In this document: positions 11,775 through 44,945 of the stretch, in pieces | How positions within the stretch are numbered: position 1 is the stretch's first letter | Layout of the letters: the number at the start of each line of letters is the position of its first letter | From: Luteibacter sp. Sphag1AF | Lineage (GTDB): Bacteria > Pseudomonadota > Gammaproteobacteria > Xanthomonadales > Rhodanobacteraceae | Length of the DNA: 64,000 nt | Direction of reading: 5' to 3' | Assembly: GCF_014192715.1 (NCBI RefSeq) | Contig: NZ_JACHYH010000007.1 | Span: 62,001-126,000 of the forward strand | Program-made: the position numbers and the translations under genes | The notes under the pieces: generated by a model | Told to the model about the DNA's origin: nothing | Seen by the model: the letters and a program-made list of their open reading frames with translations, nothing else | The model's database searches: none

Positions 11775-11812
11775 ACCCCAGCGGATGGGACCATGATCCA
11801 CGTGGAGGGTAT

Positions 11813-23176: not shown

Positions 23177-23817
23177 CAGTCACCCGCCGGCAGGGCGCGG
23201 AAATGAAACCCGCTGCGACGCCATTCGGGCAGCAGTATTTCCAGGGCGTCCAGCGCGCGTGCATTGTCGTCGTGCATCAGCACGATGTCGCCCGGGCCGG
23301 GTGGTTGCTCACGCAGACGCCTGATGAAGTGTTCGCGGGCCATATCCACCTGGTAGTCGAGGCTGTCGTAGGACCAGTAGATGAAGCTGCGCCGCTTTAT
23401 TGCGAAATGCAGCATCAGGCCCGCACCGACGTAGCCATGGGGTGGCCGCATCGCATGGTGATCGCGCCTGTCGAACTTCGACAGCAAGGCATCGGTGCGA
23501 TGGACTTCATCGAGCTGCTTCTGAAGGTTCATGTGCGTGAACGACCAGTGGCTGTAGGAGTGGTTTCCGATCATGTGGCCGTCGGCAACGATGCGGCGCA
23601 CGATGTCGGGATGCTTTTCGATCTTTTTGCCTACGAGGAAGAAGCTTGCTTTCGCGTCATGCCGGGCCAGGAGGTCCAGCAGTGGTTCGGTGTGGACTGG
23701 ATCCGGGCCGTCGTCAAAACTGAGGTAGCGGGCCTGACCCGCAGCACCGCCGCGGGTCAGTACCAGACGGTCGGGAAGCAGGCCGAGCAGATCGTTCTTG
23801 CTGGGTTTCCAGCTCAT
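23176..23817 (-). CDS. Polysaccharide deacetylase (NodB/CE4), compact
   Basis: A 213-residue NodB protein: LSFDDGPDP (first motif), GNHSYSHWSF (second), RPPHGYV (third) and LMHDDNA near the C-terminus, all residues of the CE4 active site present. Starts with about 25 residues before the fold and no signal peptide, so it may work in the cytoplasm on lipid-linked sugars. It likely de-N-acetylates an amino-sugar in the EPS repeat. One of three NodB proteins in the operon. The start overlaps the previous gene by 4 bases. Confidence 0.92.
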   Translation of the reverse strand: MSWKPSKNDLLGLLPDRLVLTRGGAAGQARYLSFDDGPDPVHTEPLLDLLARHDAKASFFLVGKKIEKHPDIVRRIVADGHMIGNHSYSHWSFTHMNLQKQLDEVHRTDALLSKFDRRDHHAMRPPHGYVGAGLMLHFAIKRRSFIYWSYDSLDYQVDMAREHFIRRLREQPPGPGDIVLMHDDNARALDALEILLPEWRRSGFHFRALPAGD

Positions 23818-28715: not shown

Positions 28716-29812
28716 GCAGCCACCGGATCGCTACCCGTTTCGTGGTGAATGGTCGGGTAGCTCATGAGTTTTGGCAGAGTCAGCATGGCGGCAAACCAGC
28801 CCGGCCCCATGTCACGCTCCACCGGCAACCGGTACAGGGCGTAACGATTGGTGGACGGATCAGCATTGGTGCCACAGATGTACGAACAGGCGGCGCGGAA
28901 GCCGGCTTCGCGTGTCGCCTCGATCACCGACTGGTTGAACGACCGGTCACCGCCCACCGGATAGGACATCAATGCCGCCCGCTCGGGCAGCTCCCGGTCC
29001 AGCGTTGCCTTCGATGCGCGGATTTCGCGGATCATTTCGTCTTCGGGCAGCTTGGCCAGCATGCGGTGATACACGCCGTGAGAGCCGATTTCGTAGCCCG
29101 CTGCGTGCATCTCGCGCAGCTGATCCCAGGTCATGGGCCGGCACTGTGCAGGCGCGCACAGCGACGGCATCCGCCAGTCGCGTTCCAGACGGTCAATCAT
29201 GGCCGACTGTTCCAGGGCGCTGATGTCTTTCATGCGCAGCAGCACGAGGCCCGCCAGTGCGCGCTTTTCGTCACGTCGTGCAGGCATCGGCATGTCGATG
29301 TTCAGCTCCGGCAGCACGAGCGACGGCGCACCCGTGCGCAGCAGCATGTGTACCAGCCAGTCATAGAGGAACGGCTTGCCGGTGTCGATGTGGCCGGTGG
29401 AAACGAAGAACGTGGCAGGTATGCCCAGGTCGCGCAGTATGGGAAAAGCCACGCGATAGTTATCGTCGTAACCATCGTCGAAGGTCACGGCGACAGCATC
29501 CGGGGGCAGCGCCTCACCGGCATCCAGTGCCTCGGCCACATCGGTGAGGCGCATGGGCCGGAAGCGCCTGCGCAGCAGGCTCATCTGGTCGTGGAAGCGC
29601 TCCGGCGACGTGCTGATGAGTTCAAGATCGAAGTCATAGGTATCCGGATCGGGATAATCCATGATCCGGTGATAGGCGAGAATCCGCAGATCCTTGCGCC
29701 ACCATGAGCGCGCGCGCTGCAACGAATGCAGCAGGCCGCTGGAGTAGCACAGCTCCCCAAGGCGTCCGCGAATGCCCGAGGCCCGGCCTTCAGCTATCGT
29801 CATCTTCACCAT
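28703..29812 (-). CDS. Polysaccharide deacetylase (NodB/CE4), large
   Basis: A 369-residue protein with a basic N-terminal region (about 1-50) and a NodB domain: ILAYHRIMDY, VAVTFDDGYDDNY (first motif), FFVSTGHID, IGSHGVYHRML (second motif, with Tyr instead of Thr) and MSYPVGGD. It belongs to the YadE/PgaB-like branch. It probably deacetylates an amino sugar of the EPS. The start has AAGGA eight bases upstream and lies inside the GT2 gene; an ATG at 29803 is a second choice. The 40-residue insertion between motifs one and two is longer than in the other two NodB proteins. Confidence 0.9.
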   Translation of the reverse strand: MVKMTIAEGRASGIRGRLGELCYSSGLLHSLQRARSWWRKDLRILAYHRIMDYPDPDTYDFDLELISTSPERFHDQMSLLRRRFRPMRLTDVAEALDAGEALPPDAVAVTFDDGYDDNYRVAFPILRDLGIPATFFVSTGHIDTGKPFLYDWLVHMLLRTGAPSLVLPELNIDMPMPARRDEKRALAGLVLLRMKDISALEQSAMIDRLERDWRMPSLCAPAQCRPMTWDQLREMHAAGYEIGSHGVYHRMLAKLPEDEMIREIRASKATLDRELPERAALMSYPVGGDRSFNQSVIEATREAGFRAACSYICGTNADPSTNRYALYRLPVERDMGPGWFAAMLTLPKLMSYPTIHHETGSDPVAACSP

Positions 29813-30936
29813 AAATGCAGTCCTTGATGGCGGGCGAAGGCCAAGAGGGCCTGCGCCGAAAAAAGATTCAGGTAATAGAACGCCGTGGCCAGCCGGACGG
29901 GCAGCCAGCGCGCAACGCGTGGAAGCAGGTGCCCGGCGACGACCAGGGCGGCAAAGGCCAGCAGGCCGGCAAACATGGCTGCGTAGAGCAAGTGCCGCGT
30001 GGCAAGCGCGGCCGTGGAAATCGCAAAAAGAACCATCAGCCAGGGAGCAATCAGGCGCAGGAGCTTGTGGCTGATGAAACGGAACCACAAAGGATTGCTT
30101 GCCGGCGATAGCAGCCAGGGCGCCAGTTGCAGCAGCTGGTAGTTCCCGGCCAGGGTGCGGATCTTGCGTTTGCGTTCGGCCTCAGGATGCTGGGAGGGCG
30201 TATCCCAGGCGATGGCACGGGGCTCGAACACCACGCGCTTGCCGACGGCGGCGACACGCATGGGCACCAGCACGTCGTCCAGCACGGTGCCGTCGGGCAG
30301 CGGAAGGAAGAGTTCGCGGCGCATGGCATACAGCGCGCCGCTGACGCCGATGGTGGAGCCGGACTGGCTTTCGGAAAGGCGGATGCGTTTTTCGTAGCGC
30401 CAGTAGGCATCCACACCCTGTGCAAAGCCGGTACGGACATCTTCCATCTGCAACTCGCCGCCCACGGCGCCCACCGTGCGGTCAGCAAGGTTGGCAACCA
30501 GCTCGCGCAGCGAGCGTGGCGACAGTTTCTGGCGCAGGTCGGTGAACAGCAGCACCTCGCCGGTTGCAGCATCCACGCCGTCGTTGATGCATGCGGCCTT
30601 GCCGCGACGCACGGGATTCTCGATGACCATCACGCGCGTGTCGCCGCTGGTACGGGCCAGTGCGGCGGTGGCGTCAGTGCAGCCGTCACAGACGATGATG
30701 ATCTGGATGCGGTCGGCGGGATAGTCCAGCGCGCGCAGGTTGGCCAGGCGTGCGCGGATGCGGCGCCCGCCGTTGAACACCGCCACCACGATGCTGACCG
30801 TTGGCGTGATCGGCGCGCGGGCCACAGGGCGCGGCGACATGCGCGCAAGCGCCCAGGTCATCAGCGGATAGCCGACGAACACGTGGGCGAGCAGCAACAG
30901 GCTGCCCCAACAGGCGAGTTCGGCCAGGTAAGTCAT
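29806..30936 (-). CDS. Glycosyltransferase family 2 (membrane-associated)
   Basis: A 376-residue GT2: N-terminal TM helix (about 5-25), catalytic GT-A domain with VSIVVAVFNGGRRI, IIVCDGCTDAT, EVLLFTDLRQ (DxD position), VSGALYAMRREL, LDDVLVPMRVA and an RKIRTLAGNYQLL motif resembling the QxxRW box of processive synthases; then three C-terminal TM helices. Similar in layout to cellulose/HA synthase-like enzymes. It could add a sugar processively or prime a branch. It follows the NRPS gene by 33 bases and is probably cotranscribed. Confidence 0.9.
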   Translation of the reverse strand: MTYLAELACWGSLLLLAHVFVGYPLMTWALARMSPRPVARAPITPTVSIVVAVFNGGRRIRARLANLRALDYPADRIQIIIVCDGCTDATAALARTSGDTRVMVIENPVRRGKAACINDGVDAATGEVLLFTDLRQKLSPRSLRELVANLADRTVGAVGGELQMEDVRTGFAQGVDAYWRYEKRIRLSESQSGSTIGVSGALYAMRRELFLPLPDGTVLDDVLVPMRVAAVGKRVVFEPRAIAWDTPSQHPEAERKRKIRTLAGNYQLLQLAPWLLSPASNPLWFRFISHKLLRLIAPWLMVLFAISTAALATRHLLYAAMFAGLLAFAALVVAGHLLPRVARWLPVRLATAFYYLNLFSAQALLAFARHQGLHLW

Positions 30937-30969: not shown

Positions 30970-33900
30970 TCAGCGCCGGCCGAAAAGCTTGCCGAACAGA
31001 GAGGTTGGCTTGCGCGCCCCACGTGCACCGGCGGCATCCAGTTCCGCCGCCAGCGTCCCGAGTGTGCCGTTCGCGATGTCCAGCAGGTTCAGTTGTACGC
31101 CAGTGCCCTGGCGTACACGGTTGGCCATGTCGACGGCAAGCAGTGAGTGACCTCCGAGGTCGAAGAAGTTGTCGCCCGGATGCACGTCGCATACATCCAG
31201 GAGTTCGCCCCAGAGCTTCGCAAGCATCGCTTCGGACGGTGTACGCGTCGCCGTGTGCGTCGCCAGGATCGGTGCAGGCGTCGGGGTGACCGTCGCGCTT
31301 GTCGCCGGTCGCATCATGCCCTCGGCCAGTTCGCGCAGGCTTCCCACTGTTTGCCGCGCATCCCGCCCGGCGCTGGCCAGCAGTGACAGATAGCGGTCGC
31401 GCATGGTGGCTGCCGTGGTCGCGTGAAGCAGGTCGGCGTTGTAGGTCACGCCACCGACCATGCCGCGTGCATTCTCCAGGAACCAGAGCCCCAGGTCTTC
31501 CGTGGCACCGCTCTGGAACAGCAGGATCTGCTCATGTTCCAGACCACCCCAGTCCACCACCCGCTGGCGTGCATCCTGGAAGGAGAACAGTGCCTGGTAC
31601 AGCACGTTGCCGCCGCCGTGGCTGACCTTGAGCTCGCGGGTCAGGTATTCCATGGGCACATCGGGATGACCGAACCCTTCCAGGGCTACGCTCTTCACAT
31701 GGCGAACGAAGTCGAGGAAGGTCATCTCCGGATGCATGCTGACGTGCAGCGGGAGCAGGTTGTTGAAGTAACCCATCACCGATTCGACCTCGGTCTGGTT
31801 GCGCCCGCGAACGGGTGTGCCGACGACCAGGTGCTGTTGCCCGGACATGCCCGATAGCAGCACGTAGTACAGCGCAAGCAGCGTCATGTTGAGCGTGGCA
31901 TCAGCACTGCGTGCCACTTCGTGCAGAAGATCGGTGGTGTCCCGTGACACGCGTATCCATTCGGTAGAACCCTTGCCGGACATGCCCGGGCGGCGCGGCA
32001 TGTCGGTGGGCAGCGCCTGCGCGGCGGGGCAACGCGACAGGCGGTCCTTCCAGAATTCCAGCTGCTCACGAAACTGCGGACCTTCCAGCCACTGGGTATG
32101 CCAGGTGGCGTAATCGCCGTAGCTGACCGGCAGCGCAGCCAGTGGCGAGGGTTCACCACGCGAGAAGGCGCGATACAGTGCCGACAGCTCGGCATAAAGG
32201 ATGTCGAACGACCAGCCGTCCCAGATGATGTGATGCGGCATGAAGAAGAACGCGTGGTTCTCGTCGGACAGGCGGAACATCTTCGCGCTGAACAGCGGAG
32301 CGGTGGCCGGATCAAACGGCGTGTCGGTGAGCTGCTGGAGGCGGCGCATGAGGGTGCGTTCGCGTTCATGCGGTGGCAGCGCTGAGAGGTCTTCGGCGGG
32401 GAAAAGCCTGGTGGGCAAGTGCGGCGCCACCACCTGCACGATGGCGTCACCCTCGCGGCGAAGCGACGTGCGCAGGCTGGCCTGGCGTGCCACCAGTGCG
32501 GCAAAGGCCTGCTCGAATGCGGCCGTGTCCAGCAGGCCGGTGAGGCGATGCGCAGAAGGCGCGTTGTAGGTCACGCGGCCCGGCTGCATCTCTTCCAGGG
32601 CAAACAGGCGCGCCTGCATCAGCGAGGCGGGCGCGCGGTCCTGAATGGGCCGGCGAACGATGGGGTGATGCGCGAACTCATGCCCGGCGGCCTTCAGGTC
32701 TGCGATGGCCAGGGCAAGTTCGGCGATGGTTGGTGCGTCGAATAGCGTACGGAACGACAGGTTCACCGAGAATTCGCGATTGAGACGCGCGGTCAGTTGC
32801 GCGGCCAGCAGGGAATGGCCGCCCAGCGCGAAGAAGTTGTCGCGAACATCGAGGTCCGGAAGGGCGAGCACCGCTTCCATCGCGGCGGCGACGCGGCGTT
32901 CGTCGTCGTTGCGCGGCGGCGTGCGATCCGTCGCGGTGGCCACCGACTGCACGGGTGGTGCAGGAAGCGCGCGGCGATCCGTCTTTCCGTTGGGGAGCAG
33001 CGGAATGGCATCCAGCAGCATCACGTGCTGCGGAAGCATGTAATCGGGCAGGCGCATCTTCATTTCCGTGCGCAGCGTGCCTTCGTCCAGCCTGGCGCCA
33101 TCCACCCCGACGACATAGGCCACCAGCCGCACATCGCCCGGACGATCTTCGCGAGCCATGACGACCGCACGTGCCACTTCCGGCAGGTCGACCAGTACCG
33201 ACTCGATTTCGCCCGGCTCAATGCGATAGCCGCGCACCTTGACCTGGAAATCCAGGCGACCCAGGTGTTCGATCTGGCCACTGGCCAGCCAGCGACCGCG
33301 GTCGCCCGTGCGATACATGCGTGCGTTCGGCATGGGTGAGAACAGATCCCGCACGAAGCGCTCGGCGGTCAGTTCAGGGCGATTGAGATAACCCAGCGTG
33401 ACGCCCGCGCCACCGATATGGATTTCGCCAGGCACTCCCAGCGGGCACGGCGAGCCGGCAGCGTCGAGAATGTAGACGGTGGTGTTGGCGATGGGCGTGC
33501 CGATGACGATGCCTTCGCGGGGCGCCTTCACAGCCCAGTACGTGGAATAGATGGTGGTTTCCGTGGGGCCGTAGCCGTTCCAGACACTGCCGCAGCGTTG
33601 CAGCAACGCTTCGGCCAGATCGACGGCCAGCGGCTCGCCACCCGACACGGCGCGGAATCCGGAATGGCCCTGCCAGCCGGACTCGATAAGGATGCGCCAG
33701 CCTGCGGGGGTGGCCTGCATCATGGTGGCGTGGCTGCGCTCCACCAGGTTGCGCAGCGCGGCGCCATCACGCACGTCGTCGTGATCGGCCACGATCACCT
33801 CGGCTCCCACGGACAGCGGGAGCATCAGTTCCATGAAAGCGATGTCGAACGACAGCGTGGTCACGGCTACCAGCCGGTCGGCTTCGGAGATGCCGGGAAC

Positions 33901-35883
33901 GCGTTGCATGCTGGTGAGGAAGTTGGACAGCGCGCCATGGGGCACGCGCACACCCTTGGGGCGGCCCGTCGAGCCAGAGGTGAAGATCACATACGCTACG
34001 GAATCCGGGGTGGCAGAGAGTTCGTCGCGTGGCAGGCGCGTGGCGGGGGCGTGCTCGATTTCGTCGCGATCATGCGTGAGGATCAGCGTTTTCGCCGGAT
34101 CAAACGGAAACGCGGTGGGCGGCACGTCCACAATGAGTGCAGCCAGTGCTGCATCCTCGACCATGAAGGCCAGGCGGTCAGCAGGGAACGCCGGATCCAG
34201 CGGCACATAACCTGCGCCTGCCTTGAGCACGCCAAGCAGCGTCGCCACCATGTCGGTACCGCGCGACACGCACAAGCCGACGAGTGAGCCGCGTCCCACG
34301 CCGCGCTTGCGCAGGCAGTGAGCGATGCGATTGGCACGATGCTCCAGGTCGATATAGCTCAGCCGCTCGGCTCCGTGGCGTACGGCAGCGCGAGCTGGCG
34401 TGACGTCGACCTGCTGCTCCATGGCTTCGTGGGCGAGCCGGTTCTCCGGATACGGCGTGGGCGCGGGCTGCATGGCGATGATCGCCTGGCGGCCCGCATC
34501 GGATACGGCAGGCAGGCGACGGGCTTCCTCATCGGGTGCTTCGGTGGCACCGCGCAGCAGTGTCTCGTAGGCCTCAAGCCATGCGGCGATGGTGGCCGGC
34601 TGGAACAGGTCGGCGTTGTACTGGCATTCCAGACGGAGGGTGCCGTCGACCTGTACGGCGTTGATGAAGAGTTCAAAGTTTTCGTAGCGGCGTGCGTTCG
34701 CCGAGAAGGTGAAGCCAAGGCCCGGGAAACTGAGCGTGGAGGTGTCCAGTGCCTGATCGAGATTGAACAGCACGCTCACCAGCGGAAGACGCGCAGGATC
34801 ACGCGGCAGCGAGAGGTGGGCAAGCAGGCTGCCAATCGTGTACTGCTGGTGGTCAAACGCATCCAGCAGGCCGCCGCGCACGTCGTCCACCAGCTGTCCG
34901 AACGACTGCTCCGGCTTCACTTCTGTGCGCAGCGGCAACACGTTGACGCAGTGTCCGACCAGTGCATCGTGACCTCCCTCAGCCTGTCCTGCGCACGGAA
35001 TGCCGATCACCAGGTCTTGCTGGCCGCTGATGCGTTCAAGAGCGAGCGCGAAGCCCGCAAGCAGCGTGGCGTAGAGGCTGGCATGGCGTTTGGCGCCCAT
35101 GCGGCGTATGGCCGAGACGAGTTCAGCGTCCAGCACACGGTCTTCGCGGCGCGAGGTGAACGTGCGGCGGCGGGCGCGTGGCCGGTCGGTGGGCAGATCC
35201 AGGGACGGCACGCTGCCGCTGAAGCGCGACACCCAGTAGGAGCGCGCGTCCGCGTTGTCCGCGCCGCGGGCACGCACGGCTTCTTCCATCGCGTAGGCGG
35301 CGAATGAATCCGCGGGTGCCGGTGCGAAGCCATCGGCGACGCGCGCACCATACAGGGTGGCCAGATCATTCATCAGCACGCTGAAGGACCAGCCATCGCA
35401 GATGATGTGATGGGCGGTGAGGACCAGTACATGATGCAGCGGGCCGCGGCGCAGCAGTGACGCGCGCAACAGGGGACCGTGCTCGAGATCAAACGGTGTG
35501 GTGACGGCGTCGTCCAGCGCGGCCTGAATGGCGGCGGCCTGCGCCGCTGCATCAAGCGTGGCCAGGTCGACCAGGGGGCACGGCAGGTCGCGCTCCTGTG
35601 CGATGCACAGTTCTTCGCCGTCGACGCTCACGGTCGCGCGGAGGGCTTCGTGCCGGGTAACCAGGTCCGCGAGAGCCGCGACGAGAGCGGTGGTGTCGAG
35701 CGGGCCGGTGAGTTCCAGCGAGACAGATTCGTTATAGGCGAGCGATCCCTCTTCGGACAACGTGGAGGCCAGCCAGATTTCGCGCTGCGGCGCCGTGGTC
35801 GGGACGACGCGCGCAAGCGCCACGCCAGCGAAGGGATCGTAGTCGACAGCCTGGGTAGCCGCCATCACGTCGTTCGGAGTCAT
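30970..35883 (-). CDS. Nonribosomal peptide synthetase, C-A-PCP-C-PCP
   Basis: A 1637-residue NRPS. C1 (about 25-460) has HHIICDG (His158-His159); A (about 485-965) has IFTSGSTGRPKG and NGYGPTETT; PCP1 has GGHSLLAAQ (Ser1024); C2 (about 1070-1500) has HHIIWDG (His1217-His1218); PCP2 has GGHSLLAVD (Ser1580). There is no thioesterase, reductase or second adenylation domain. The pocket residues of A, read by motif alignment, are about D-I-M-Q-A-S-G-I-Y; the start resembles glycine codes but the rest does not, so no substrate is called. It accepts the product of the hybrid protein encoded just upstream (ATGA overlap). How the last carrier is loaded and how product is released are unclear. Confidence 0.95.
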   Translation of the reverse strand: MTPNDVMAATQAVDYDPFAGVALARVVPTTAPQREIWLASTLSEEGSLAYNESVSLELTGPLDTTALVAALADLVTRHEALRATVSVDGEELCIAQERDLPCPLVDLATLDAAAQAAAIQAALDDAVTTPFDLEHGPLLRASLLRRGPLHHVLVLTAHHIICDGWSFSVLMNDLATLYGARVADGFAPAPADSFAAYAMEEAVRARGADNADARSYWVSRFSGSVPSLDLPTDRPRARRRTFTSRREDRVLDAELVSAIRRMGAKRHASLYATLLAGFALALERISGQQDLVIGIPCAGQAEGGHDALVGHCVNVLPLRTEVKPEQSFGQLVDDVRGGLLDAFDHQQYTIGSLLAHLSLPRDPARLPLVSVLFNLDQALDTSTLSFPGLGFTFSANARRYENFELFINAVQVDGTLRLECQYNADLFQPATIAAWLEAYETLLRGATEAPDEEARRLPAVSDAGRQAIIAMQPAPTPYPENRLAHEAMEQQVDVTPARAAVRHGAERLSYIDLEHRANRIAHCLRKRGVGRGSLVGLCVSRGTDMVATLLGVLKAGAGYVPLDPAFPADRLAFMVEDAALAALIVDVPPTAFPFDPAKTLILTHDRDEIEHAPATRLPRDELSATPDSVAYVIFTSGSTGRPKGVRVPHGALSNFLTSMQRVPGISEADRLVAVTTLSFDIAFMELMLPLSVGAEVIVADHDDVRDGAALRNLVERSHATMMQATPAGWRILIESGWQGHSGFRAVSGGEPLAVDLAEALLQRCGSVWNGYGPTETTIYSTYWAVKAPREGIVIGTPIANTTVYILDAAGSPCPLGVPGEIHIGGAGVTLGYLNRPELTAERFVRDLFSPMPNARMYRTGDRGRWLASGQIEHLGRLDFQVKVRGYRIEPGEIESVLVDLPEVARAVVMAREDRPGDVRLVAYVVGVDGARLDEGTLRTEMKMRLPDYMLPQHVMLLDAIPLLPNGKTDRRALPAPPVQSVATATDRTPPRNDDERRVAAAMEAVLALPDLDVRDNFFALGGHSLLAAQLTARLNREFSVNLSFRTLFDAPTIAELALAIADLKAAGHEFAHHPIVRRPIQDRAPASLMQARLFALEEMQPGRVTYNAPSAHRLTGLLDTAAFEQAFAALVARQASLRTSLRREGDAIVQVVAPHLPTRLFPAEDLSALPPHERERTLMRRLQQLTDTPFDPATAPLFSAKMFRLSDENHAFFFMPHHIIWDGWSFDILYAELSALYRAFSRGEPSPLAALPVSYGDYATWHTQWLEGPQFREQLEFWKDRLSRCPAAQALPTDMPRRPGMSGKGSTEWIRVSRDTTDLLHEVARSADATLNMTLLALYYVLLSGMSGQQHLVVGTPVRGRNQTEVESVMGYFNNLLPLHVSMHPEMTFLDFVRHVKSVALEGFGHPDVPMEYLTRELKVSHGGGNVLYQALFSFQDARQRVVDWGGLEHEQILLFQSGATEDLGLWFLENARGMVGGVTYNADLLHATTAATMRDRYLSLLASAGRDARQTVGSLRELAEGMMRPATSATVTPTPAPILATHTATRTPSEAMLAKLWGELLDVCDVHPGDNFFDLGGHSLLAVDMANRVRQGTGVQLNLLDIANGTLGTLAAELDAAGARGARKPTSLFGKLFGRR

Positions 35884-38800
35884 GCGTTCACCCTCAGATA
35901 CTTTCCGGGGACATCGGGATGGGGGACAAACCAGGCGGGATGGCCTTCGGCGTCGCGGCCCAGGCGGGCGCCTTCGACCGGCGGCCGATCCACGTCCAGC
36001 GTGCGGGCTTCAAGGATGTGGCGCGGCAGGAATTCGGCTTCCTGCAACTCCAGTACGGAATCCTTGAAGGCTTTCGCCATCGCAGCGAAGTCTTCTTCGC
36101 TGTGCGAAGTGGTGAAGAAACAGGGGAAGTTATCCAGGATGTGGATGCCCCGGCTGCGCATCATGGCGAACAGCAATTCCTGCATCGGGTGGTCTTCCGG
36201 GAACGTGGTCTTCCACACCGAGGCGTAGTGCACCACCTTGATCGGCGCGCCGACGGCGGTGCAGAAGATGTTCAATTCGTCCACGAATGCAGCGGTGCGC
36301 TCGTTCAGCGATTCCTGCAACGCCGGGCCCGCTTCGGACAAATGCGTGAGCACCGCATGAGCGGCGGCGAGCGCCAGCGGATGGCGTACGAACGTGCCGG
36401 CAAAATACGTGACGCCTACGGTGGGTACGGAGTCGTCGCCGTACTGCCAGTGGCCGCCGTCCAGTGCGTCCATGAAGCGGCGTTTGCCTGCGATGACGCC
36501 GATGGGGAATCCGCCACCGACCACCTTGCCGTACGAAGCCAGGTCGGCATCAATGCCGAGCATGGCCTGCGCACCGCGCGGGTGCGTGCGGAAGCCGGTG
36601 ACCACCTCGTCGAAGATGAGCAGCGCGCCCGCGTCTTCGGTGATGGCGCGCAGTTCCTGGAGGAATTCGCGCGGCTGGAAATCCGGGCGGCGGCTTTGCA
36701 CGGGCTCTACAAGCACGGCGGCGATGGTGGAGGCGCGCTCGCGGATGATGGCCAGCGACTCGGGCGTACCGTAATCAAGCACAAGCACGTTCTCGGCCGT
36801 GTTGCGCAGAATGCCGGGAGCCGCCGGAACCGAGCGCAGCTTCTTCGTGCCGCGCACGATCACTTCATCGAAGATGCCATGGTACGAGCCGGTGAAGATC
36901 ACCAGCGTGTCGCGGCCCGTGACAGTGCGCGCGATGCGTACGGTGCCCATCACCGCTTCAGAGCCGGTGTTGCACAGGGCAGCGCGGTCGAAGCCGGTGA
37001 GGTCGCAGATCTGCCGCGCCACCACGCCTGCCAGAGGGTGCTGTGGCCCGATTTCGTAGCCGGTGTCTAGCTGTGCGCGCACGGCGCTGGTCACGAAGTC
37101 CGGCTGCCAGCCGAACAGGTTCATGCCAAAACCGTTGAGTGCGTCGATATATTCGTTGCCGTCGATGTCCCAGACCCGTGAGCCTTTCGAGCGCTCTACA
37201 ACCATCTGATAAATCATTTCCTTCAGCAACGGACGGAAGCCATTCACCACGCGGGGATCGGCCAGATGGTCGCGATGTTCTGTCGTATAGGCCTTCGACG
37301 CAGCGGTGCGCGCGATGTAGCGGCGCATGAAAGCATCCAGGCGTCCGCGCTGGCGCGTGGTCAGTTCGGTCGACGTGGAATGGATGCGTGCGATGGCGCC
37401 GAATGCCTTCTTGACGTCGTAAGTGGTGTGGGCCAGTGCGGCTTCTTCGGTGTCGGCGACGGGCGCGTCCGGTGTCCTGGCTACTGCCGCGGCAGGCGCT
37501 GGTACAGCCGCGCTCGGCGCACCGGCAAGCAGTGCCAGTTGCTGCTGCATGATCTGCATCTGCTGCTGGATCACGTCCTGCATCAGATTTCCCGTGACGG
37601 TGGTGGCGGGCGCACTCGCGGCAGCGACAGATGGGGCGGCAGGCGCGGGCTGAGCGACAGGCGCGCTGGCTTCCGGTGGCAGAAGCCGGTCGATGTGCGC
37701 GGCCAGTGCGGTGAACGAGGAGCAGTTTTCCATCAGCTCGCGGAAGGTGATCTTCAGCGCGTACGTTTTCTGCAATTGCAGCGCCACCTGGGTGAGCGAC
37801 AGCGAATCCAGGCCCAGTTCGAGGAAGTTGGCATCCGGCGCGCTGTCGGCAAAGTCGTTGCCGGAAACCTCTTCAAACAGGGCCGCGAGCTCGGGAATGA
37901 GGCGGCTCGTGCGGGGGGCGGCAGGCATGGCCATGGACGGCTCCGGTGACGCGGGCATGGAAGTGGCAGGGGTGACATCGGGCGCGATGGCCGGCGCGAT
38001 GCCTTGCGGCAAGGCGTCCACCCAGTGACGGCGACGCTCGAAGGGATAAGTGGGCAGGCGCACACGCTGGCGATGCTGGCGGCGGTCAAGCACAGATAGA
38101 TCGACGTCCACGCCGCTGGCCCAGAGTTGGCCCATCGCGTCCAGCCAGGTGCTGCGCTCGGCGGTCGCCGAGTCGGCCAGGGAAGCGACGGTCACATGCT
38201 GGCGGGCATTCGGATGCTGGCGGGTCAACAGGGTCAGGGTGTTGCGCGGGCCCACTTCGAGGAACACATGCGTGCCCTGATCGAGCCGGGTGGTAAGGGC
38301 CCCGGAAAAGCGTACCGTGCCGCGCAGATGACGTGTCCAGTAGTCGACGGACATCGCTTCGTTGTCGGTCAGGGTCATGCCGGTCAGGGTGGAGATGATC
38401 GGCATGTCCGGAGCATTCAGGGTGATCGCGGCGACTTCGGCGCGGAACGCAGCCAGTGCCGGGTCCATCATGGCGGAGTGGAACGCGTGCGAGGTATGCA
38501 GCACGCGGCAGGCGATGCCAGAGGCATCAAGCGCTGCACGGAAGGTTTCGATAGGCGCGGTTTCTCCGGAAACGACGCACGCGGACGGCGCATTTTCCGC
38601 AGCGAGTGAAAGCTCGGCGGGCAGGCGCGCAGCGAGCGAGGCGGCATCCATGCGTACCGACAGCATGGTCCCGGGTGCCATCGCCTGCATCAGCTTGCCT
38701 CGCCGGGCAACGAGCCGCGCGCCGTCACCCAGCGACATGACACCCGCGAGCACGGCGGCAGCGAACTCGCCGACGCTATGGCCGATCATGGCGGCAGGAC

Positions 38801-41800
38801 GCACCCCCGCACTCATCCACAGCCTGGCCAGCGCGTATTCGATAGCGAACGTCGCCGGCTGAGTAAGCGATGTTTCGCGAAGTGCTTCCGGATCATCGGC
38901 AAACATGCGTTCGGCAAGGTCGAAACCGAGGTCATCACGCAGTGCTTCGACACAGGCATCCAGCGCATCGCGGAAAACCGGTTCGCGGCGATACAGTTCA
39001 CGACCCATGCCGGCGTACTGCGAGCCCTGACCCGGGAAAAGGAAGACGACAGGCGCGTGCTGCGCAGACACCTGGCGCACGGGCGCAGCGTGATCGGCGA
39101 GTTGGCTTGCCACCTGGGCCGCATCGTCCGCCACCAGCCAGCTACGCTGCGCGAACGCCTTGCGGCCGTGAGCCAGCGTCAGCGCCACGTCCGCAAGGTT
39201 GCTTTCCGGCGCGCGGGCAAGATGCGCACCCAGCTGCTGCCAGGCATGCTGCACGGCAGCGTCTGAACGCGCGGAAACGAGCAACAGTTGCGCGCCTTCA
39301 GCGGGGTCGGACGGTGTGCGCGCGGGTGCTTCTTCCAGAATCACATGGGCATTCGTGCCGCCCACACCGAACGAACTGACGCCTGCGCGACGTGGCGATT
39401 CGCCGTGCGTCCACGGCGTCAACGCGGCATTGACCACAAAGGGGGAGGATGTGAGGGAGAGTGCCGGGTTGGGTGCGACGTAATGCAGTGAAGCGGGAAT
39501 CTGCTTTGTGGCCAGCGCGAGCGCCGTCTTGATAACGCCTGCCGCACCGGCCGCCATGACCAGGTGACCGACGTTGCTCTTAACCGAGCCGATGGCGCAG
39601 AAGCCGGTAGCCGCGGTGTGCCTGCGGAACGCATGGGTGAGGCCTTCGATCTCGATGGGATCGCCGAGCGGAGTTGCCGTCCCGTGGGTTTCCACATACG
39701 AGAGCGAGCCTGCATCGACGCCTGCATTGCGCAGCGCGGCCGTGATGACGGCGGCCTGACCGGCACTGCTGGGGGCCGTGAAACTGGCCTTGCCGCCGCC
39801 ATCGTTGTTGACGGCGGCGCCACGGATCACGGCATACACCGGATCGCCGTCGCGCAGTGCGTCGTCCAGCCGCTTGAGCAGGACCACGGCGGCACCATCG
39901 CTGAAAACGGTGCCACGCGCGTTCGCATCGAAGCTGCGCGTATGGCCGTCGGGAGACAGCATGGAGCCTTCCTGCGCGATGTAGCCACTGCGCGGCGGAC
40001 AGGTGATCGACGAGCCGCCCGCCAGGGCCATGTCACAGCGGCCGGCGCGCAGCGCATCGAATGCCTGGGCGATGGCCACCAGCGACGTGGAGCACGCCGT
40101 GTTCATGCTGATGGCGGGGCCGGTGAGGTTGAGCTTGTGGGCAACATGCGTCGACAGATAGTCCTTTTCGTTGCCCAGCATGGTCTGGAAAGCACCAAAG
40201 CGGGCAATCAGCTCCGGATGCGTTTGCAGATGACGCTGAAAGTATGTGGCGTTGTGCATGCCGGCGAAGATGCCGACAGGCGCCGTCTGGGCATCGGGCA
40301 CGTAGCCGCCGCGCTCAAGACATTCCCAGCACAGCTCCATGAAAATGCGCTGCTGCGGGTCGGTCAGCTCGGCTTCGCGGGGCGACATACCGAAGAAGGC
40401 GGCATCGAAATCTTCCACGCCATCGACAATGCCGCGCGCGAATACATAGTTCGGATCGTCGCGCTCATCCGCAGGCACGCCAGGATCAAGATCCTCGCGC
40501 GTGAAGGTGGTAATGGATTCGCGCGATGCACACAGGTTGTCCCAGAACGTTTCCACGTCGGCGGCGCCCGGGAAGCGCCCGGCCATGGCGGTGATCGCGA
40601 CCGGCGAGGCTGCGGGCATATCGCGTGGCGCTTCGGCGACCGGTGCCGGGGCTGCCTGGGCCAGGCTCGCTGCGATGGCGGCGGGCGTGGGAGCAGCGAA
40701 AAAGCTGGCTACGCTGACGGCGGTCGAGATACCGGCATGAATGCGCGCAAGCGCAGCCGTCGCCAGCAGCGATGAACCGCCGAGGTCGAAGAAGTGATCG
40801 TCACGACCGATGCGGGCAATACCAAGCAGGTCGGAGAAGATGCCGCAAAGCGCACGTTCGTTGTCGTTCACCGGTTCCACATAGTCACCAGCGAGCGCCG
40901 GGCGGTCGTTGCCGGGGATGGGAAGCGCGCGGCGGTCCAGCTTGCCGTTGGCGGTGATCGGCATGGACTCCAGCGGTACGAAGACGGCGGGCAGCATGAA
41001 GGCGGGAAGCGTCCTGGCCAGCGCGTCGCGCAAGGCGGCGGCCGCAGGTGCATCCGGGTACGGCACGTAGTAGGCCAGCAGGCGCTTGCCGCCGTGATCG
41101 TCGTCGCGCGCGATCACAGCCGCGTCTCGGACACCCGGCAGCGCATGCATGGCGTGTTCGATTTCGCCCAGTTCGATGCGGTAGCCGCGAATCTTCACCT
41201 GGCCGTCGCGGCGGCCGATGAATTCAAGTGTGCCGTCCTCACGCCAGCGCACCAGGTCGCCCGTGCGGTACAGGCGTCCGCCTGAGCCTGCGAATACGTC
41301 GTTGAGAAAGCGCTGCGCGTTGAGTTCGGGGCGGCCGAGATAACCACGCGCCACGCCCGCGCCACCGATGTACAGCTCACCGGTTACGCCCACTGGGACG
41401 GGTTCTCCACGCGCGTTCAGAACATACAGCGTGGTGTCTGCAATGGGCCGACCCACAGGTACGCTTTGCAGCGCCGGGTCCAGCTCGCGGGGAATGGCCC
41501 AGGTGGTCGCAAACGTCGTGCATTCGGTGGGACCGTAGCCATTGCTGAGCTGCGTGTTCGGCAGCGCTTCCAGCGCCTTGCGCACATGCACGAGCGACAG
41601 CGCTTCGCCGCCTGTGATGATGTGTTTCAGGCCAGCGAGTCTGGCCGGGTTCTCGTCGATGATGGCGTTGAACAGAGCGGCAGTCAGCCAGGCGACGCGG
41701 GCACCGTGGACAACGATGCTTTCCTCCAGCCCGCATGCGGTGGGCACGGCTTCGTGGTGCACGACGCAGGTGCCACCATTCAGAAGCGGCCCCCATATTT

Positions 41801-43058
41801 CAAAGGTGGCTGCATCAAAGCCCAGTGGCGCGGCGTGCAGCACGCGCGTGTCGGCGGTCAGCGCAACGTAGCCGACATCGCGCACCAGCCGGATGATGGA
41901 GCGATGCTCGATCTGCGCACCCTTCGGGGTACCCGTGGAGCCGGACGTGTACATCACGTACGCCAGCGACTCGCCCGTGCCAGGCGGCAGCGCAGGGGCG
42001 ATTTCGGCGGGCAGATGGCTGATGTCGAGCACGGTGGCGGTCAGCCCGGCGGTTGCCGTGGCGCCACAGGCAATGACGGTGGTGGCGCCGGCATCGGCCA
42101 GCATGAAATTGAGGCGCTCTGTCGGCTGGGAGGGGTCCAGAGGCAGATAGGCCGCGCCGGCCTTGAGGATGCCCAGCATGGCGACAATCGCGCCCGGCGA
42201 GCGCAGGGCGAGCAGGCCAACAGGCGCTTCGGCGTGAATGCCCGCAGCCAGAAGGCCGGCTGCCACGCGCGAGGATTGCGCGTCCAGCTGCGCATAGGTC
42301 AGCGTGCCGTCTTGCCATGCCAGTGCCACAGCGTCGGGACTGGAAGCGGCGACCTCGGCAAACAGGGAGTGCACGGTGTCTCCGGCACGACGCGGACGGG
42401 CCGTGTGATTGAAGTCTTCCAGGATGCGGCGGCGCTCGTCGGCGCTCATTACTCCCACGTCGTGCATGGAGCGCGCGCCTTCGTGAAGCAGCGTGCAGAG
42501 CACTTCAACGACGGCGCCGGCCAGAAGATCCATGGCCGCATCGGTGAACGGTGCCGGAAAGTCGACCTGGATACGGGCGGGCGATTCGATCATCAGGCGC
42601 CAGCGGCTGCCGCAGCAGGGTTCGTCGCTGGCATTCGGGCCATCGCAGGCCGGGCGCGTATCGGTGTCCACCACGATCCATGGCGCATGACCGCGGGCGT
42701 GAACTTCGGCGGCGAGCAGCGCATGGATCTGCTGCGTCAGCCACGCGTCGTGGCTGGCATCGTCGTCGATGGTGAGGTAAGCGCGCAGATTCACGCCATC
42801 GTAGCTGCGCCATGCGGGAACGCGGCTGGCGCCGGTCAGGCGCGCTTCCACGAGGCCCAGCGCGATGCAGAAAAGCATCTCAGCTCCCACGCCATGCTTG
42901 AGCACGGCGTGTTCGACCAGTTCGGGAAGGGCCGCGTCCAGCGCGTATTCGTAGTGCTTCCAGCGCGGGCCCACCTGGGCGACGTGGCAGGGCAGCACAT
43001 CGACCAGCGTTGGCGGCGTATCGTCCTGGGTGCGGTTGGCCGTAATGAACGGATTCAT
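35880..43058 (-). CDS. NRPS-PKS-aminotransferase hybrid (A-PCP-KS-AT-ACP-AMT)
   Basis: About 2392 residues. Residues 1-215 resemble a condensation-domain remnant without HHxxxDG. A domain about 225-700 with YTSGSTGTPKG; pocket read as D-A-F-W-I-G-G-T-F, the well-known valine signature. PCP Ser763 (GGSSLLA). KS about 815-1240 with NTACSTS (Cys989), THGTATPLGDP and KSNVGH. AT about 1325-1640, GHSVGE Ser1428, HAFH (1524-1527) indicating malonyl-CoA. ACP Ser1752 (GLDSLSL). An Ala/Pro linker with a Q-rich helix leads to a class III aminotransferase (Lys2178 in YGKVVGGG, Asp in FDEVVTGF) like MycA/ItuA/McyE. No KR, so the beta-ketone is probably transaminated. The ATG at 43058 is preferred to a GTG 18 bases earlier. 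Confidence 0.95.
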   Translation of the reverse strand: MNPFITANRTQDDTPPTLVDVLPCHVAQVGPRWKHYEYALDAALPELVEHAVLKHGVGAEMLFCIALGLVEARLTGASRVPAWRSYDGVNLRAYLTIDDDASHDAWLTQQIHALLAAEVHARGHAPWIVVDTDTRPACDGPNASDEPCCGSRWRLMIESPARIQVDFPAPFTDAAMDLLAGAVVEVLCTLLHEGARSMHDVGVMSADERRRILEDFNHTARPRRAGDTVHSLFAEVAASSPDAVALAWQDGTLTYAQLDAQSSRVAAGLLAAGIHAEAPVGLLALRSPGAIVAMLGILKAGAAYLPLDPSQPTERLNFMLADAGATTVIACGATATAGLTATVLDISHLPAEIAPALPPGTGESLAYVMYTSGSTGTPKGAQIEHRSIIRLVRDVGYVALTADTRVLHAAPLGFDAATFEIWGPLLNGGTCVVHHEAVPTACGLEESIVVHGARVAWLTAALFNAIIDENPARLAGLKHIITGGEALSLVHVRKALEALPNTQLSNGYGPTECTTFATTWAIPRELDPALQSVPVGRPIADTTLYVLNARGEPVPVGVTGELYIGGAGVARGYLGRPELNAQRFLNDVFAGSGGRLYRTGDLVRWREDGTLEFIGRRDGQVKIRGYRIELGEIEHAMHALPGVRDAAVIARDDDHGGKRLLAYYVPYPDAPAAAALRDALARTLPAFMLPAVFVPLESMPITANGKLDRRALPIPGNDRPALAGDYVEPVNDNERALCGIFSDLLGIARIGRDDHFFDLGGSSLLATAALARIHAGISTAVSVASFFAAPTPAAIAASLAQAAPAPVAEAPRDMPAASPVAITAMAGRFPGAADVETFWDNLCASRESITTFTREDLDPGVPADERDDPNYVFARGIVDGVEDFDAAFFGMSPREAELTDPQQRIFMELCWECLERGGYVPDAQTAPVGIFAGMHNATYFQRHLQTHPELIARFGAFQTMLGNEKDYLSTHVAHKLNLTGPAISMNTACSTSLVAIAQAFDALRAGRCDMALAGGSSITCPPRSGYIAQEGSMLSPDGHTRSFDANARGTVFSDGAAVVLLKRLDDALRDGDPVYAVIRGAAVNNDGGGKASFTAPSSAGQAAVITAALRNAGVDAGSLSYVETHGTATPLGDPIEIEGLTHAFRRHTAATGFCAIGSVKSNVGHLVMAAGAAGVIKTALALATKQIPASLHYVAPNPALSLTSSPFVVNAALTPWTHGESPRRAGVSSFGVGGTNAHVILEEAPARTPSDPAEGAQLLLVSARSDAAVQHAWQQLGAHLARAPESNLADVALTLAHGRKAFAQRSWLVADDAAQVASQLADHAAPVRQVSAQHAPVVFLFPGQGSQYAGMGRELYRREPVFRDALDACVEALRDDLGFDLAERMFADDPEALRETSLTQPATFAIEYALARLWMSAGVRPAAMIGHSVGEFAAAVLAGVMSLGDGARLVARRGKLMQAMAPGTMLSVRMDAASLAARLPAELSLAAENAPSACVVSGETAPIETFRAALDASGIACRVLHTSHAFHSAMMDPALAAFRAEVAAITLNAPDMPIISTLTGMTLTDNEAMSVDYWTRHLRGTVRFSGALTTRLDQGTHVFLEVGPRNTLTLLTRQHPNARQHVTVASLADSATAERSTWLDAMGQLWASGVDVDLSVLDRRQHRQRVRLPTYPFERRRHWVDALPQGIAPAIAPDVTPATSMPASPEPSMAMPAAPRTSRLIPELAALFEEVSGNDFADSAPDANFLELGLDSLSLTQVALQLQKTYALKITFRELMENCSSFTALAAHIDRLLPPEASAPVAQPAPAAPSVAAASAPATTVTGNLMQDVIQQQMQIMQQQLALLAGAPSAAVPAPAAAVARTPDAPVADTEEAALAHTTYDVKKAFGAIARIHSTSTELTTRQRGRLDAFMRRYIARTAASKAYTTEHRDHLADPRVVNGFRPLLKEMIYQMVVERSKGSRVWDIDGNEYIDALNGFGMNLFGWQPDFVTSAVRAQLDTGYEIGPQHPLAGVVARQICDLTGFDRAALCNTGSEAVMGTVRIARTVTGRDTLVIFTGSYHGIFDEVIVRGTKKLRSVPAAPGILRNTAENVLVLDYGTPESLAIIRERASTIAAVLVEPVQSRRPDFQPREFLQELRAITEDAGALLIFDEVVTGFRTHPRGAQAMLGIDADLASYGKVVGGGFPIGVIAGKRRFMDALDGGHWQYGDDSVPTVGVTYFAGTFVRHPLALAAAHAVLTHLSEAGPALQESLNERTAAFVDELNIFCTAVGAPIKVVHYASVWKTTFPEDHPMQELLFAMMRSRGIHILDNFPCFFTTSHSEEDFAAMAKAFKDSVLELQEAEFLPRHILEARTLDVDRPPVEGARLGRDAEGHPAWFVPHPDVPGKYLRVNA

Positions 43059-43149
43059 GGACTCTCGCTCTCTCACGCTTCCTCAAAAAGGCCATGCGTT
43101 GCCCGGCATGGAACGACCCTTTCCCCTTGTGCCTATCGTCAGTGCGAAG

Positions 43150-43206
43150 CGCGCCTGGTGGAATACGGCATACGGGCTAACCGAAGTGTGGTCAGGCGCG
43201 TTTTTT
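43150..43206. promoter_or_regulatory. Long-loop stem in the gap before the NRPS-PKS gene
   Basis: CGCGCCTG (43150-43157) pairs perfectly with CAGGCGCG (43193-43200), followed by six T on the plus strand. It lies in the 172-base gap between the cupin stop and the NRPS-PKS start, so on the operon transcript it forms a 35-base-loop hairpin in the leader. The palindrome GGCCTTAGGCC (43227-43237) overlaps the cupin stop. Either could regulate readthrough into the giant genes; no canonical promoter was assigned. Confidence 0.35.
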
Positions 43207-43230
43207 CCTGCATTTGCCGGGCTATTGGCC

Positions 43231-44181
43231 TTAGGCCGTTTGGTCTATGCCCCGATGAGCCAGTGCATCGAAGCCCCGGTGCACCCGTTGACCCAGCCTC
43301 GCCACGTGGCATTTGGCGCGATCAACGACTTCGCTGCGGCCCACGGCGCGGGGATGCAGACCGAGGCCGCGCAGGCGCGCGTTGAGACGATGTGCATCGG
43401 TGGCCATGTCCGAGTGGCGCGTGCGGAAAGTGAGGGCCAGCGACACCGACAGCTCCGAACCGGTATGCACTCGGTGCGGAGCAATGAACGGGTGATGCAC
43501 GCCCAGGCCGGGGGTGAGGTTCCATTCGGTGGCCAGTGGCTCGATCGCCTCGCTGTAGGGTGGCCGGCCACCCACATGGGCAAGCAGGTGGTCCTTCTCG
43601 CGGGAAGACATCACGGTTTCATCCATGGGGTCCCACAGATATACGGTCTTTTTGCCCTGCAACTGAAGCAGGTAGTTCATCTCCCGATCCATGTGATACG
43701 GCGTGACCGCATCGCGCGTGGAGATGAACACATAGGTGGAAAACCAGGTGATGCCGGGGTCCAGCGCATGCGTGCGCGACGCTACTTCACCCATCAGGCC
43801 TTCGATCAGCGGGGCGTATGCGGGGTCGCGTTCGGGATTGTTGATGCAGATGTACGCTTGATGTTCCTCGAAGCCGTCCAGCACGCTGTCCAGAGTGAGA
43901 CCGGCGCGGTAACGGTCGTAGGACGTATCCAGGTCAGCGTTGCCGGGGATGGCGCCCATGCGATAGAGGATGCTTTCGACGGGCATACGGCGGCAAAGCG
44001 CGAACAGGCTGGTCAGCGAAAACATCGGATGAGCCGTGAGGTCATGGCCGATCAGGAACGGGGCGCGGTTGTATGACTGGGTGACCACTTCCTCGTCGAA
44101 ATGAAGCAGGGGCGTGGAGACCGTGCGTCCGTGCTGAAGCAGTTCGTCGTACCGCGAGGTCGAAAGATAGGTGCCGAGCAT
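43231..44181 (-). CDS. Cupin/JmjC-like Fe(II)/2-oxoglutarate oxygenase
   Basis: A 316-residue cupin_8/JmjC-type protein: TPYHMDREMNYLLQLQGKK carries the H-x-D metal ligands (about 165-183), and VHHPFIAPHRVHTG followed by VSLALTFRT supplies the distal His and the 2-oxoglutarate-binding region (about 230-252). The C-terminal 60 residues are basic and low in structure. Such enzymes hydroxylate amino acids or peptides, including free or carrier-bound residues in NRPS pathways. Its place directly before the hybrid synthetase points to tailoring of the same product. A JmjC-type sugar/peptide modifier is the alternative. Confidence 0.82.
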   Translation of the reverse strand: MLGTYLSTSRYDELLQHGRTVSTPLLHFDEEVVTQSYNRAPFLIGHDLTAHPMFSLTSLFALCRRMPVESILYRMGAIPGNADLDTSYDRYRAGLTLDSVLDGFEEHQAYICINNPERDPAYAPLIEGLMGEVASRTHALDPGITWFSTYVFISTRDAVTPYHMDREMNYLLQLQGKKTVYLWDPMDETVMSSREKDHLLAHVGGRPPYSEAIEPLATEWNLTPGLGVHHPFIAPHRVHTGSELSVSLALTFRTRHSDMATDAHRLNARLRGLGLHPRAVGRSEVVDRAKCHVARLGQRVHRGFDALAHRGIDQTA

Positions 44182-44204: not shown

Positions 44205-44945
44205 TCAGGGCGCCTGAAAGGCGAACAGGAACAGAAGCGCGCCCTGTACGGGGGCGGCAGTCCAGGTGACCTGCCAGACACCAGGTCCTGCCACCTGGCG
44301 CGTTGCAACCGCGACCTGCACTCCGCTTTCGTCGGGCAGGTCGGTAAAGCGGTCAATCACGGTGAAGCCATCGCCTGCTTCGGCAGTCATCTTCTTCACG
44401 CCGCCATCGCCCCACCACACGGCAATCAGCGTGGCCGGCCCGGTCGTCTGCACGGCGCCACTGGTGACGACGAGCGCAGGCGGCGCATAGGTGCTGGTCA
44501 TCGCGTGCAGCGTGTTCGCGCCGCGAATCTCGATGAAGGGCACGGATATCTCGCCAGCGGGCTCACCGGGCTTGTTGATGCGAACCGTGTGGTCCGGGCC
44601 GCCGTGGGCGTTGTCGGCCACATAGGCTTTCACGTCGAAGCGGTCGCCGTACTCGTTGCCGTAGGGCACCTGGGCCACACGCTTCCAGCGGTTGCCATAG
44701 CTGTCTGCCGGCGTGCCGTTGTTGCTGATGTAGCCACCATCGAGCACCAGGAAAGAGCTGCCCGTGGTTTGCGTGGTCAGCGGCGCGGTGACAGCGGGCG
44801 ACACGCCCGATCCCTCACCCACGCCAAGCAGCGTATGCGCGCCCAGCGCCGGGGGCGAGGTGGCCATGGCGACTCCTGATGCGGCCATCGCAAGACAGGC
44901 ACCCGTCGCCCATATGAGGCTTCTGATCCGGCGGCCCGTGTGCAA
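44205..44945 (-). CDS. Secreted protein of unknown function, first gene of the NRPS/EPS operon
   Basis: About 246 residues with a signal peptide (RRIRSLIWATGACLAMAASGVAMA, cleaved near residue 29). The mature protein is rich in Gly, Ala, Thr and Val, with aromatic turns (WWGDGGVKKM, GVWQVTWTAAP) suggesting a beta-sandwich. No family is recognised. The start is uncertain: TTG at 44945 gives a proper signal peptide, ATG at 44888 cuts it short. The stop is 23 bases before the cupin start, so it may be cotranscribed with the synthetases. The same frame stays open far upstream through the divergent gene, which is a shadow. Confidence 0.6.
   Translation of the reverse strand: MHTGRRIRSLIWATGACLAMAASGVAMATSPPALGAHTLLGVGEGSGVSPAVTAPLTTQTTGSSFLVLDGGYISNNGTPADSYGNRWKRVAQVPYGNEYGDRFDVKAYVADNAHGGPDHTVRINKPGEPAGEISVPFIEIRGANTLHAMTSTYAPPALVVTSGAVQTTGPATLIAVWWGDGGVKKMTAEAGDGFTVIDRFTDLPDESGVQVAVATRQVAGPGVWQVTWTAAPVQGALLFLFAFQAP

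Follow-up and report, generated by a model that had tools for sequence, protein, structure and literature searches.

The question raised by this locus is why a large nonribosomal peptide synthetase–polyketide synthase (NRPS-PKS) assembly line should lie inside a run of exopolysaccharide genes. The locus was found in a 64,000-nucleotide stretch of Luteibacter sp. Sphag1AF (contig NZ_JACHYH010000007.1, positions 62,001 to 126,000), which was analysed as a whole and is called the window below; coordinates refer to it. The answer that we prefer, with a probability of roughly 0.47, is that its two synthetases, NRPS1 and NRPS2, build a peptide of the Val-malonate(beta-amino)-aminoacyl type, and that a pair of hydrolases takes this peptide off its carrier and transfers it, probably to a polysaccharide precursor. 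The four proteins are encoded as follows.

35880..43058, minus strand: NRPS1, with a degenerate N-terminal stretch, A, PCP, KS, AT (GHSxGE, HAFH), ACP and class III aminotransferase (Pfam, domain map, motifs)
30970..35883, minus strand: NRPS2, C-A-PCP-C-PCP, with no thioesterase and without the last A domain of longer relatives (Pfam, domain map, motifs)
13922..14758, plus strand: hydrolase 1, with invariant Cys112 and His246, predicted transacylase (TIGR03100-like, 76.5 bits, below the cut-off of 168)
13141..13929, plus strand: hydrolase 2, a probable pseudo-enzyme with Arg where the nucleophile would be (TIGR03101-like, 74.6 bits, below the cut-off of 203)

Organization of the locus

The Pfam scan and the domain map bore out the coordinates and domain orders that the first-pass annotation had given for both synthetases: NRPS1 (2392 aa; A-PCP-KS-AT-ACP-aminotransferase) runs from 43058 to 35880 and NRPS2 (1637 aa; C-A-PCP-C-PCP) from 35883 to 30970, with an overlap of 4 bp. 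The gene order on the minus strand is cupin-like gene, NRPS1, NRPS2, GT2, deacetylases, Wzy, CapK-like adenylating enzyme, GT4 genes and formyltransferase, and the claim that the synthetases continue into these glycan genes was confirmed. GT2 follows NRPS2 after a gap of 33 bp, and the ten junctions downstream of GT2 measure -13 to +2 bp and are mostly overlaps. The cupin-like gene is separated from NRPS1 by 172 bp. Terminator-like sites between 28600 and 47400 numbered 7, compared with a shuffle mean of 10.9, with no site in the NRPS2-GT2 gap and a weak one in the cupin-NRPS1 gap (43111-43092). The scan for terminators and promoters was uninformative.

The boundaries first drawn enclosed both synthetases but were too narrow for the system, as the minus-strand run goes on to 19289 and the hydrolase pair had been left out. 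The opposite (plus) strand carries, at 8805-18931, XrtA-type export, chain-length, kinase and outer-membrane genes, the hydrolase pair, galE, a gene for a 548-aa protein and a flippase gene. The components of a Wzx/Wzy-dependent locus are all present, namely the initiating transferase, flippase, Wzy, and chain-length and export proteins.

Predicted product of the assembly line

NRPS1 combines KS, malonyl-type AT, ACP and aminotransferase, each with catalytic motifs, in one protein. The AT serine, malonyl-type HAFH, ACP serine and aminotransferase lysine motifs were present in all 65 NRPS1 proteins. Stricter patterns matched in 45–57 (KS), 57 (PCP) and 62 (A-core) of the 65, and the window NRPS1 matches all of them. 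The closest solved relative of the aminotransferase is mycosubtilin MycA (6kfm; E value, 7.7e-123). Because it matches MycA better than other solved chains, it probably converts a beta-keto to a beta-amino group.

Substrates of the A domains are predicted from ten-residue codes, with positions and meanings after GrsA and published codes. The first A domain of the window has the code DAFWIGGTFK, which we take to be Val-like, and Val-like codes occurred at this place in 63 of 82 rows. The second A domain had a Gly-like code in 51 of 90 rows and DIMQ[VI]GG[VI]YK in 27, including the window; the last A domain had a Gly-like code in 25 of 50. The code table also contains a few stand-alone ligases and, like the 15-genome comparison and hydrolase alignment below, holds some genomes under both a genome id (G) and a named-locus id (L).

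The end of NRPS2 was compared in 71 proteins from the window and the named loci. In 24 of them, including the window protein, the sequence is too short for the last A domain; among the other 47, at least three of the four A-domain core motifs were found in 21, one motif in 1 and none in 25 (including the thioesterase form L200). Since this domain is intact, motif-less or absent in different relatives, it decays and drops out while the last PCP is kept. The proteins end at a median of 60 aa past the last PCP serine, which leaves no room for a thioesterase, and no terminal thioesterase was found in the 56 aa that follow this serine in the window NRPS2. A GxSxG pattern beyond the last PCP was seen in 10 of the 71 proteins. 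Tails of about 325 aa were present in four, as hydrolase 2 in L199, L203 and L207 and as a thioesterase in L200; the long tail of L193 is an artefact of a missed motif.

Hydrolase pair

Hydrolases 1 and 2 (13141-14758) are alpha/beta-hydrolases and relatives of the "exosortase A-associated hydrolases". The nucleophile elbow of hydrolase 1 contains Cys in 43 of 43 aligned rows (32 distinct), at the position of the nucleophile Ser of a solved hydrolase in the profile alignment, and the His is invariant. Cys in the elbow together with a catalytic His is the arrangement of Cys-type carrier-protein transacylases, and Cys instead of Ser is often linked to transfer. Judged from its sequence, hydrolase 1 is a predicted transacylase. 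In hydrolase 2 the nucleophile position is Arg in 38 of 39 rows (31 distinct), and this partner is a probable pseudo-enzyme that has lost its nucleophile.

Genome-wide co-occurrence was counted for hydrolase 1, which was matched in 99 of 233 family genomes. The aminotransferase part of NRPS1 was also matched in 96 of these, that is, in 96 of the 104 aminotransferase-positive genomes. Conversely, 12 genomes had a conserved 386-aa protein, used as the marker of the polysaccharide core, without an aminotransferase match, and hydrolase 1 was absent in 9 of them; the three that have it (G069, G082, G133) are affected by incompleteness or fragmentation. In its distribution, hydrolase 1 therefore follows the synthetase rather than the glycan core. 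The corresponding Fisher values (e.g., 1.7e-51) ignore shared ancestry, and the correlation between aminotransferase and hydrolase 1 distances (Mantel r 0.36; 0/2000 permutations) includes duplicate loci and is weak support. Of the three hydrolase-only genomes, two were 86% (G069) and 77% (G133) complete, and the third (G082) had an NRPS2 match on the hydrolase contig. The eight synthetase-positive genomes lacking a hydrolase 1 match comprised two with a thioesterase (G027, G037), four resembling other assembly lines (G106, G112, G225, G230) and two with the genes at contig ends (G220, G026). The gene caller was trained on window genes and performed poorly on some genomes, and tblastn was used instead for some of these exceptions.

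In three Luteimonas loci (L199, L203, L207), hydrolase 2 is fused to the C-terminus of NRPS2 (E values, 1e-58 to 1e-61) and is followed by a separate hydrolase 1. In G037 and G027, both without a hydrolase 1 match, the C-terminus of NRPS2 is a classical thioesterase, and the family genome search gave no core marker match in either; G027 and L200 are one record and count as one thioesterase case. In Lysobacter arvi, hydrolase 1 is followed by a Wzx-type flippase gene. Taken together, it is likely that the hydrolase pair is the release machinery of the synthetases.

Distribution and synteny

The first-pass annotation knew of no parallel to this layout, which proved to be widespread among relatives from soil and water. 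Each of the 23 Luteibacter-group genomes had a match to the aminotransferase module. At E values up to 1e-110 the module was matched in 104 of the 233 genomes of the family, and at 1e-70 in 91 of the 398 genomes of the order. Named genomes yielded 358 relatives, the best 80 of which came from Luteibacter, Dyella, Frateuria, Rhodanobacter, Lysobacter, Luteimonas, Pseudoxanthomonas, Dokdonella, Thiomonas, Xenophilus and several bins. Among named genomes, the closest relative is carried by L. rhizovicinus LP_13_YM. A search for the same gene order, suggested at the outset, found the block again in L. rhizovicinus (G011) with 53–90% identity, including dehydrogenase and epimerase genes beyond the minus-strand block.

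Polysaccharide-type neighbours, defined by BLAST to window genes other than the cupin and secreted protein genes (E up to 1e-15), were counted for the best 80 of the 358 relatives. They were present in 54 of the 57 loci of at least 20 kb, the exceptions being L193, L195 and L208, and in 11 of 23 shorter loci, with 12 lacking them. GT2 and Wzy come after NRPS2 in 10 of the 15 genomes compared, with an extra NRPS gene between in G207; NRPS2 is directly followed by the hydrolase pair in G042, G058 and G045, and G120 and G037 are arranged differently. When aminotransferase and core marker were on one contig, they lay no more than 25 kb apart in 71 of 74 genomes. A shorter second architecture, A-PCP plus KS-AT-ACP-aminotransferase-C-A-PCP, has the same neighbours: the hydrolase pair lies directly behind it in G050, G059, G061 and G215, and GT2-deacetylase-Wzy in G129, G149 and G173. 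The chain-length family TIGR03007 was matched over its cut-off in 17 of 20 further synthetase-bearing genomes; of 133 chain-length matches, the 21 weak ones (23–29% identity) were removed before the co-occurrence analysis.

We consider it very probable that the synthetases belong functionally to the exopolysaccharide locus. Of the peptide-glycan connection envisaged in the first-pass annotation, the functional link is well supported by conserved synteny, the lack of a thioesterase and a hydrolase pair that tracks the synthetase and, in Luteimonas, is joined to it by fusion, whereas covalent attachment is what we infer.

Proposed mechanism and alternatives

According to the mechanism that we propose, NRPS1 would load a Val-type residue, add malonate and transaminate the beta-keto group to give a 3,4-diamino-acyl chain; the domain order and motifs are observed, and the substrates are predicted. 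NRPS2 would append one or two small residues, presumably Gly-type in many relatives, and its last PCP would hold the finished chain. As there is no built-in thioesterase, hydrolase 1 would free the chain through its Cys nucleophile, aided by hydrolase 2, a step for which the genomic case is strong. The pair may then hand the peptide over to the polysaccharide precursor, where the likeliest acceptor would be an amine bared by the deacetylases of the locus, ahead of Wzx/Wzy export. That the peptide ends up on the polysaccharide is a tentative claim at close to even odds. More tentative still is the general form of the proposal, a widespread and undescribed decoration of Wzx/Wzy polysaccharides with a nonribosomal diamino-acid peptide, in which a Cys-transacylase/pseudo-hydrolase pair would move carrier-bound acyl groups onto the glycan precursor.

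Several observations weigh against transfer to a polysaccharide. In Xenophilus azovorans, the order NRPS1, NRPS2, phosphopantetheinyl transferase (L216:16580-17305), hydrolase 2 and hydrolase 1 is found amid housekeeping genes (TtcA, MiaB-like, MdoH, SRP54, RNR). Among the 20 further synthetase-bearing genomes, TIGR03007 was unmatched in Xenophilus, a Variovorax bin and a third bin (G522, 2.7 Mb), where the product may be free or bound for another acceptor. Hydrolase 1 lies 76–465 kb from the synthetase in G002, G021, G005 and G111, and the window encodes the pair on the strand opposite to the synthetases. In the thioesterase-bearing G037, an XrtA-type chain-length gene lies at a distance of 45 kb from the synthetase, so a thioesterase does not imply missing polysaccharide genes. 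A Burkholderiales bin (L236:332-2388) encodes in a row an 82-aa protein judged by eye to be ACP-like, hydrolase 2 (Arg) and hydrolase 1 (Cys, over the TIGR03100 cut-off). This unit, which in itself speaks for the proposed mechanism, was rejected as an NRPS-free canonical locus because its contig also carries synthetase L193 at a distance of about 65 kb, and its hydrolase pair may serve either. In addition, the co-occurrence counts are raw and uncorrected for phylogeny, and it is possible that the Cys enzyme hydrolyses rather than transfers.

The leading alternative is that the cassette makes a free small peptide (a signal, an inhibitor or a matrix-associated metabolite), which hydrolases 1 and 2 would release by hydrolysis or cyclisation, the linkage reflecting biofilm co-regulation only. 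PMC7293339 provides a precedent: genes linked to PEP-CTERM/polysaccharide loci produce N-acyl amino acids that are free. The Xenophilus cassette, the lack of TIGR03007 there and in the Variovorax bin, and the thioesterase version in two genomes without the core marker agree with this alternative. We nevertheless regard it as unlikely, though to be taken seriously, as the polysaccharide flippase was the sole transporter seen among the scanned block genes, the nucleophile is Cys and not Ser, and the cassette has a fixed place inside the glycan gene run. The glycosyltransferase genes immediately downstream, read in the same direction, could also mean that the peptide is an aglycone or anchor on which a glycan is built to give a glycopeptide or glycolipopeptide. 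This is improbable, because an initiating sugar-phosphate transferase, Wzx, Wzy and chain-length control represent the usual undecaprenyl-diphosphate route, and G041 and G245, NRPS-free in the stretch read, retain much of the glycosyltransferase core. CapK was rejected as a partner of the synthetases on the same two genomes, which also have it, so that CapK belongs to the glycan core.

The pair could also be an aminoacyl shuttle of the SyrC and CmaE kind, charging the A-less last PCP in trans, with release by another enzyme. The Cys nucleophile of hydrolase 1 would fit this, as would the state of the last A domain, which 24 of the 71 NRPS2 proteins lack and which has no core motifs in most of a further 25. 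We find this quite improbable, since the pair is also present where the last A domain retains its motifs (e.g., L197, L204) and a thioesterase occupies its place in G027 and G037. Finally, conservation in L. rhizovicinus does not extend to the plus-strand genes that flank the block, a point in favour of a secondary-metabolite cluster that was inserted here and is functionally unconnected with its neighbours; chance adjacency of this kind was rejected as highly improbable in view of the co-occurrence and synteny described above (71/74 for marker proximity, 54/57 for neighbours). A strict swap between the NRPS and a stand-alone ligase with an ACP was likewise rejected, as G045 has both NRPS and ligase-like genes.

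Other features of the window

The remaining genes of the locus are listed below.

43231..44181, minus strand: cupin-like protein, putative hydroxylase (PF13621, 25.1 bits, under the cut-off of 27.4; 71% ortholog in L. rhizovicinus)
44205..44930, minus strand: putative secreted protein, about 241 aa long with an uncertain start, outside any Pfam family (62–71% in L. rhizovicinus)
45659..47059, minus strand: polyprenyl-phosphate sugar-1-phosphate transferase (TIGR03013, 561 bits, over cut-off)
29806..30936, minus strand: GT2 glycosyltransferase (Pfam)
28703..29812, minus strand: PgaB-like polysaccharide deacetylase (profile match on longer ORF, start from gene caller)
27453..28715, minus strand: Wzy-type polymerase/ligase (PF04932 over cut-off; TIGR03097 below cut-off)
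26101..27453, minus strand: CapK/phenylacetate-CoA-ligase-like adenylating enzyme (profile matches below cut-offs; no Pfam match)
24980..26098, minus strand: GT4 glycosyltransferase (profile matches)
23814..24983, minus strand: GT4 glycosyltransferase (profile match, gene caller)
23176..23817, minus strand: NodB-like polysaccharide deacetylase (profile matches)
22007..23176, minus strand: GT4 glycosyltransferase (profile match)
20850..22010, minus strand: conserved 386-aa protein, the core marker (58–81% identity in 12 relatives; no Pfam or PDB match)
20059..20853, minus strand: formyltransferase (profile match on longer ORF, start from gene caller)
19289..20062, minus strand: polysaccharide deacetylase (profile match, gene caller)
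8805-9428, plus strand: XrtA-type export protein (TIGR03027, 208 bits, over cut-off)
9465-11009, plus strand: XrtA-type chain-length determinant (TIGR03007, 366 bits, over cut-off)
11013-11774, plus strand: tyrosine kinase (TIGR03018 and TIGR03016, for the kinase and outer-membrane genes, below cut-off)
ending at 13144, plus strand: outer-membrane protein (part of the 8805..13144 export block)
14755..15759, plus strand: galE-type epimerase adjoining the hydrolase pair (TIGR01179 over cut-off)
15756..17402, plus strand: 548-aa protein, no confident family (profile scan)
17399..18931, plus strand: Wzx-type flippase (PF01943)

The first-pass call of a cupin oxygenase holds as far as a cupin-like gene at 44181-43231 is concerned, and its family assignment is weak. 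Between the sugar transferase and a GMC oxidoreductase gene, the plus strand (47366-51018) has a pair resembling the Smlt3025/Smlt3024 type IV secretion inhibitor/effector, below cut-offs, with no match within 55 kb around the equivalent block of L. rhizovicinus. The minus strand at 51090-55281 encodes the GMC oxidoreductase, an epimerase and a UDP-sugar dehydrogenase (TviB-like, over cut-off), which are kept with the block in L. rhizovicinus. A further condensation-domain-like stretch, a partial match, lies at G000:C5:217489-218439 of the same genome.

Comparison with known systems

No description of the synthetase-polysaccharide arrangement was found among the matches listed in the literature searched, where coverage of subscription journals was limited. 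The individual parts are of known kinds, and it is their combination that was not found described there. An assembly line for a short, unusual peptide among polysaccharide genes, together with a hydrolase pair that probably passes the peptide on, points to a peptide-decorated polysaccharide of a kind not yet described. If this is true, the output of NRPS-PKS lines in many genera would include structural components of biofilm polymers as well as free metabolites, and genome mining may count glycan-modification genes as orphan secondary metabolites. Two hydrolase families listed as hypothetical in NCBIfam would gain a testable role, and peptide amines on the polymer would alter its charge and cross-linking.

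The locus shares with XrtA/PEP-CTERM exopolysaccharide loci TIGR03013, TIGR03007 and TIGR03027, all over cut-off (561, 366 and 208 bits), and relatives of both hydrolases. It differs from them in its NRPS-PKS and in hydrolases that score under the TIGR03100 and TIGR03101 cut-offs. Exosortase (PF09721) had no match in this genome and was matched in 3 of 18 genomes, 2 over cut-off; the label of a PEP-CTERM/exosortase system was therefore rejected. The stand-alone ligase and ACP of G041 and G245 (below cut-offs) were not seen among the window genes scanned. Stieleriacine-type N-acyl amino acid genes are another case of amino-acid-derived product genes linked to PEP-CTERM/polysaccharide loci (PMC7293339, with reference to Craig et al., 2011). 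There, one N-acyl amino acid synthase yields a product that is free, compared with a multimodular NRPS-PKS without a thioesterase here.

The KS-AT-ACP-aminotransferase order is shared with mycosubtilin/iturin-type NRPS-PKS, and the aminotransferase is closely related to MycA; in contrast to the mycosubtilin layout, the window line opens with an A domain for an amino acid, lacks a thioesterase and lies inside a glycan gene run. SyrC and CmaE are trans-acting Cys aminoacyltransferases of the alpha/beta-hydrolase family, found beside carrier proteins. Hydrolase 1 is like them in being an alpha/beta-hydrolase with a predicted Cys nucleophile, and here has a nucleophile-less partner. In the D-alanylation of teichoic acids by Dlt, an adenylation enzyme and a carrier protein decorate an envelope polymer with a single D-Ala through DltB, whereas the present locus has a multimodular peptide line and a Cys hydrolase pair.

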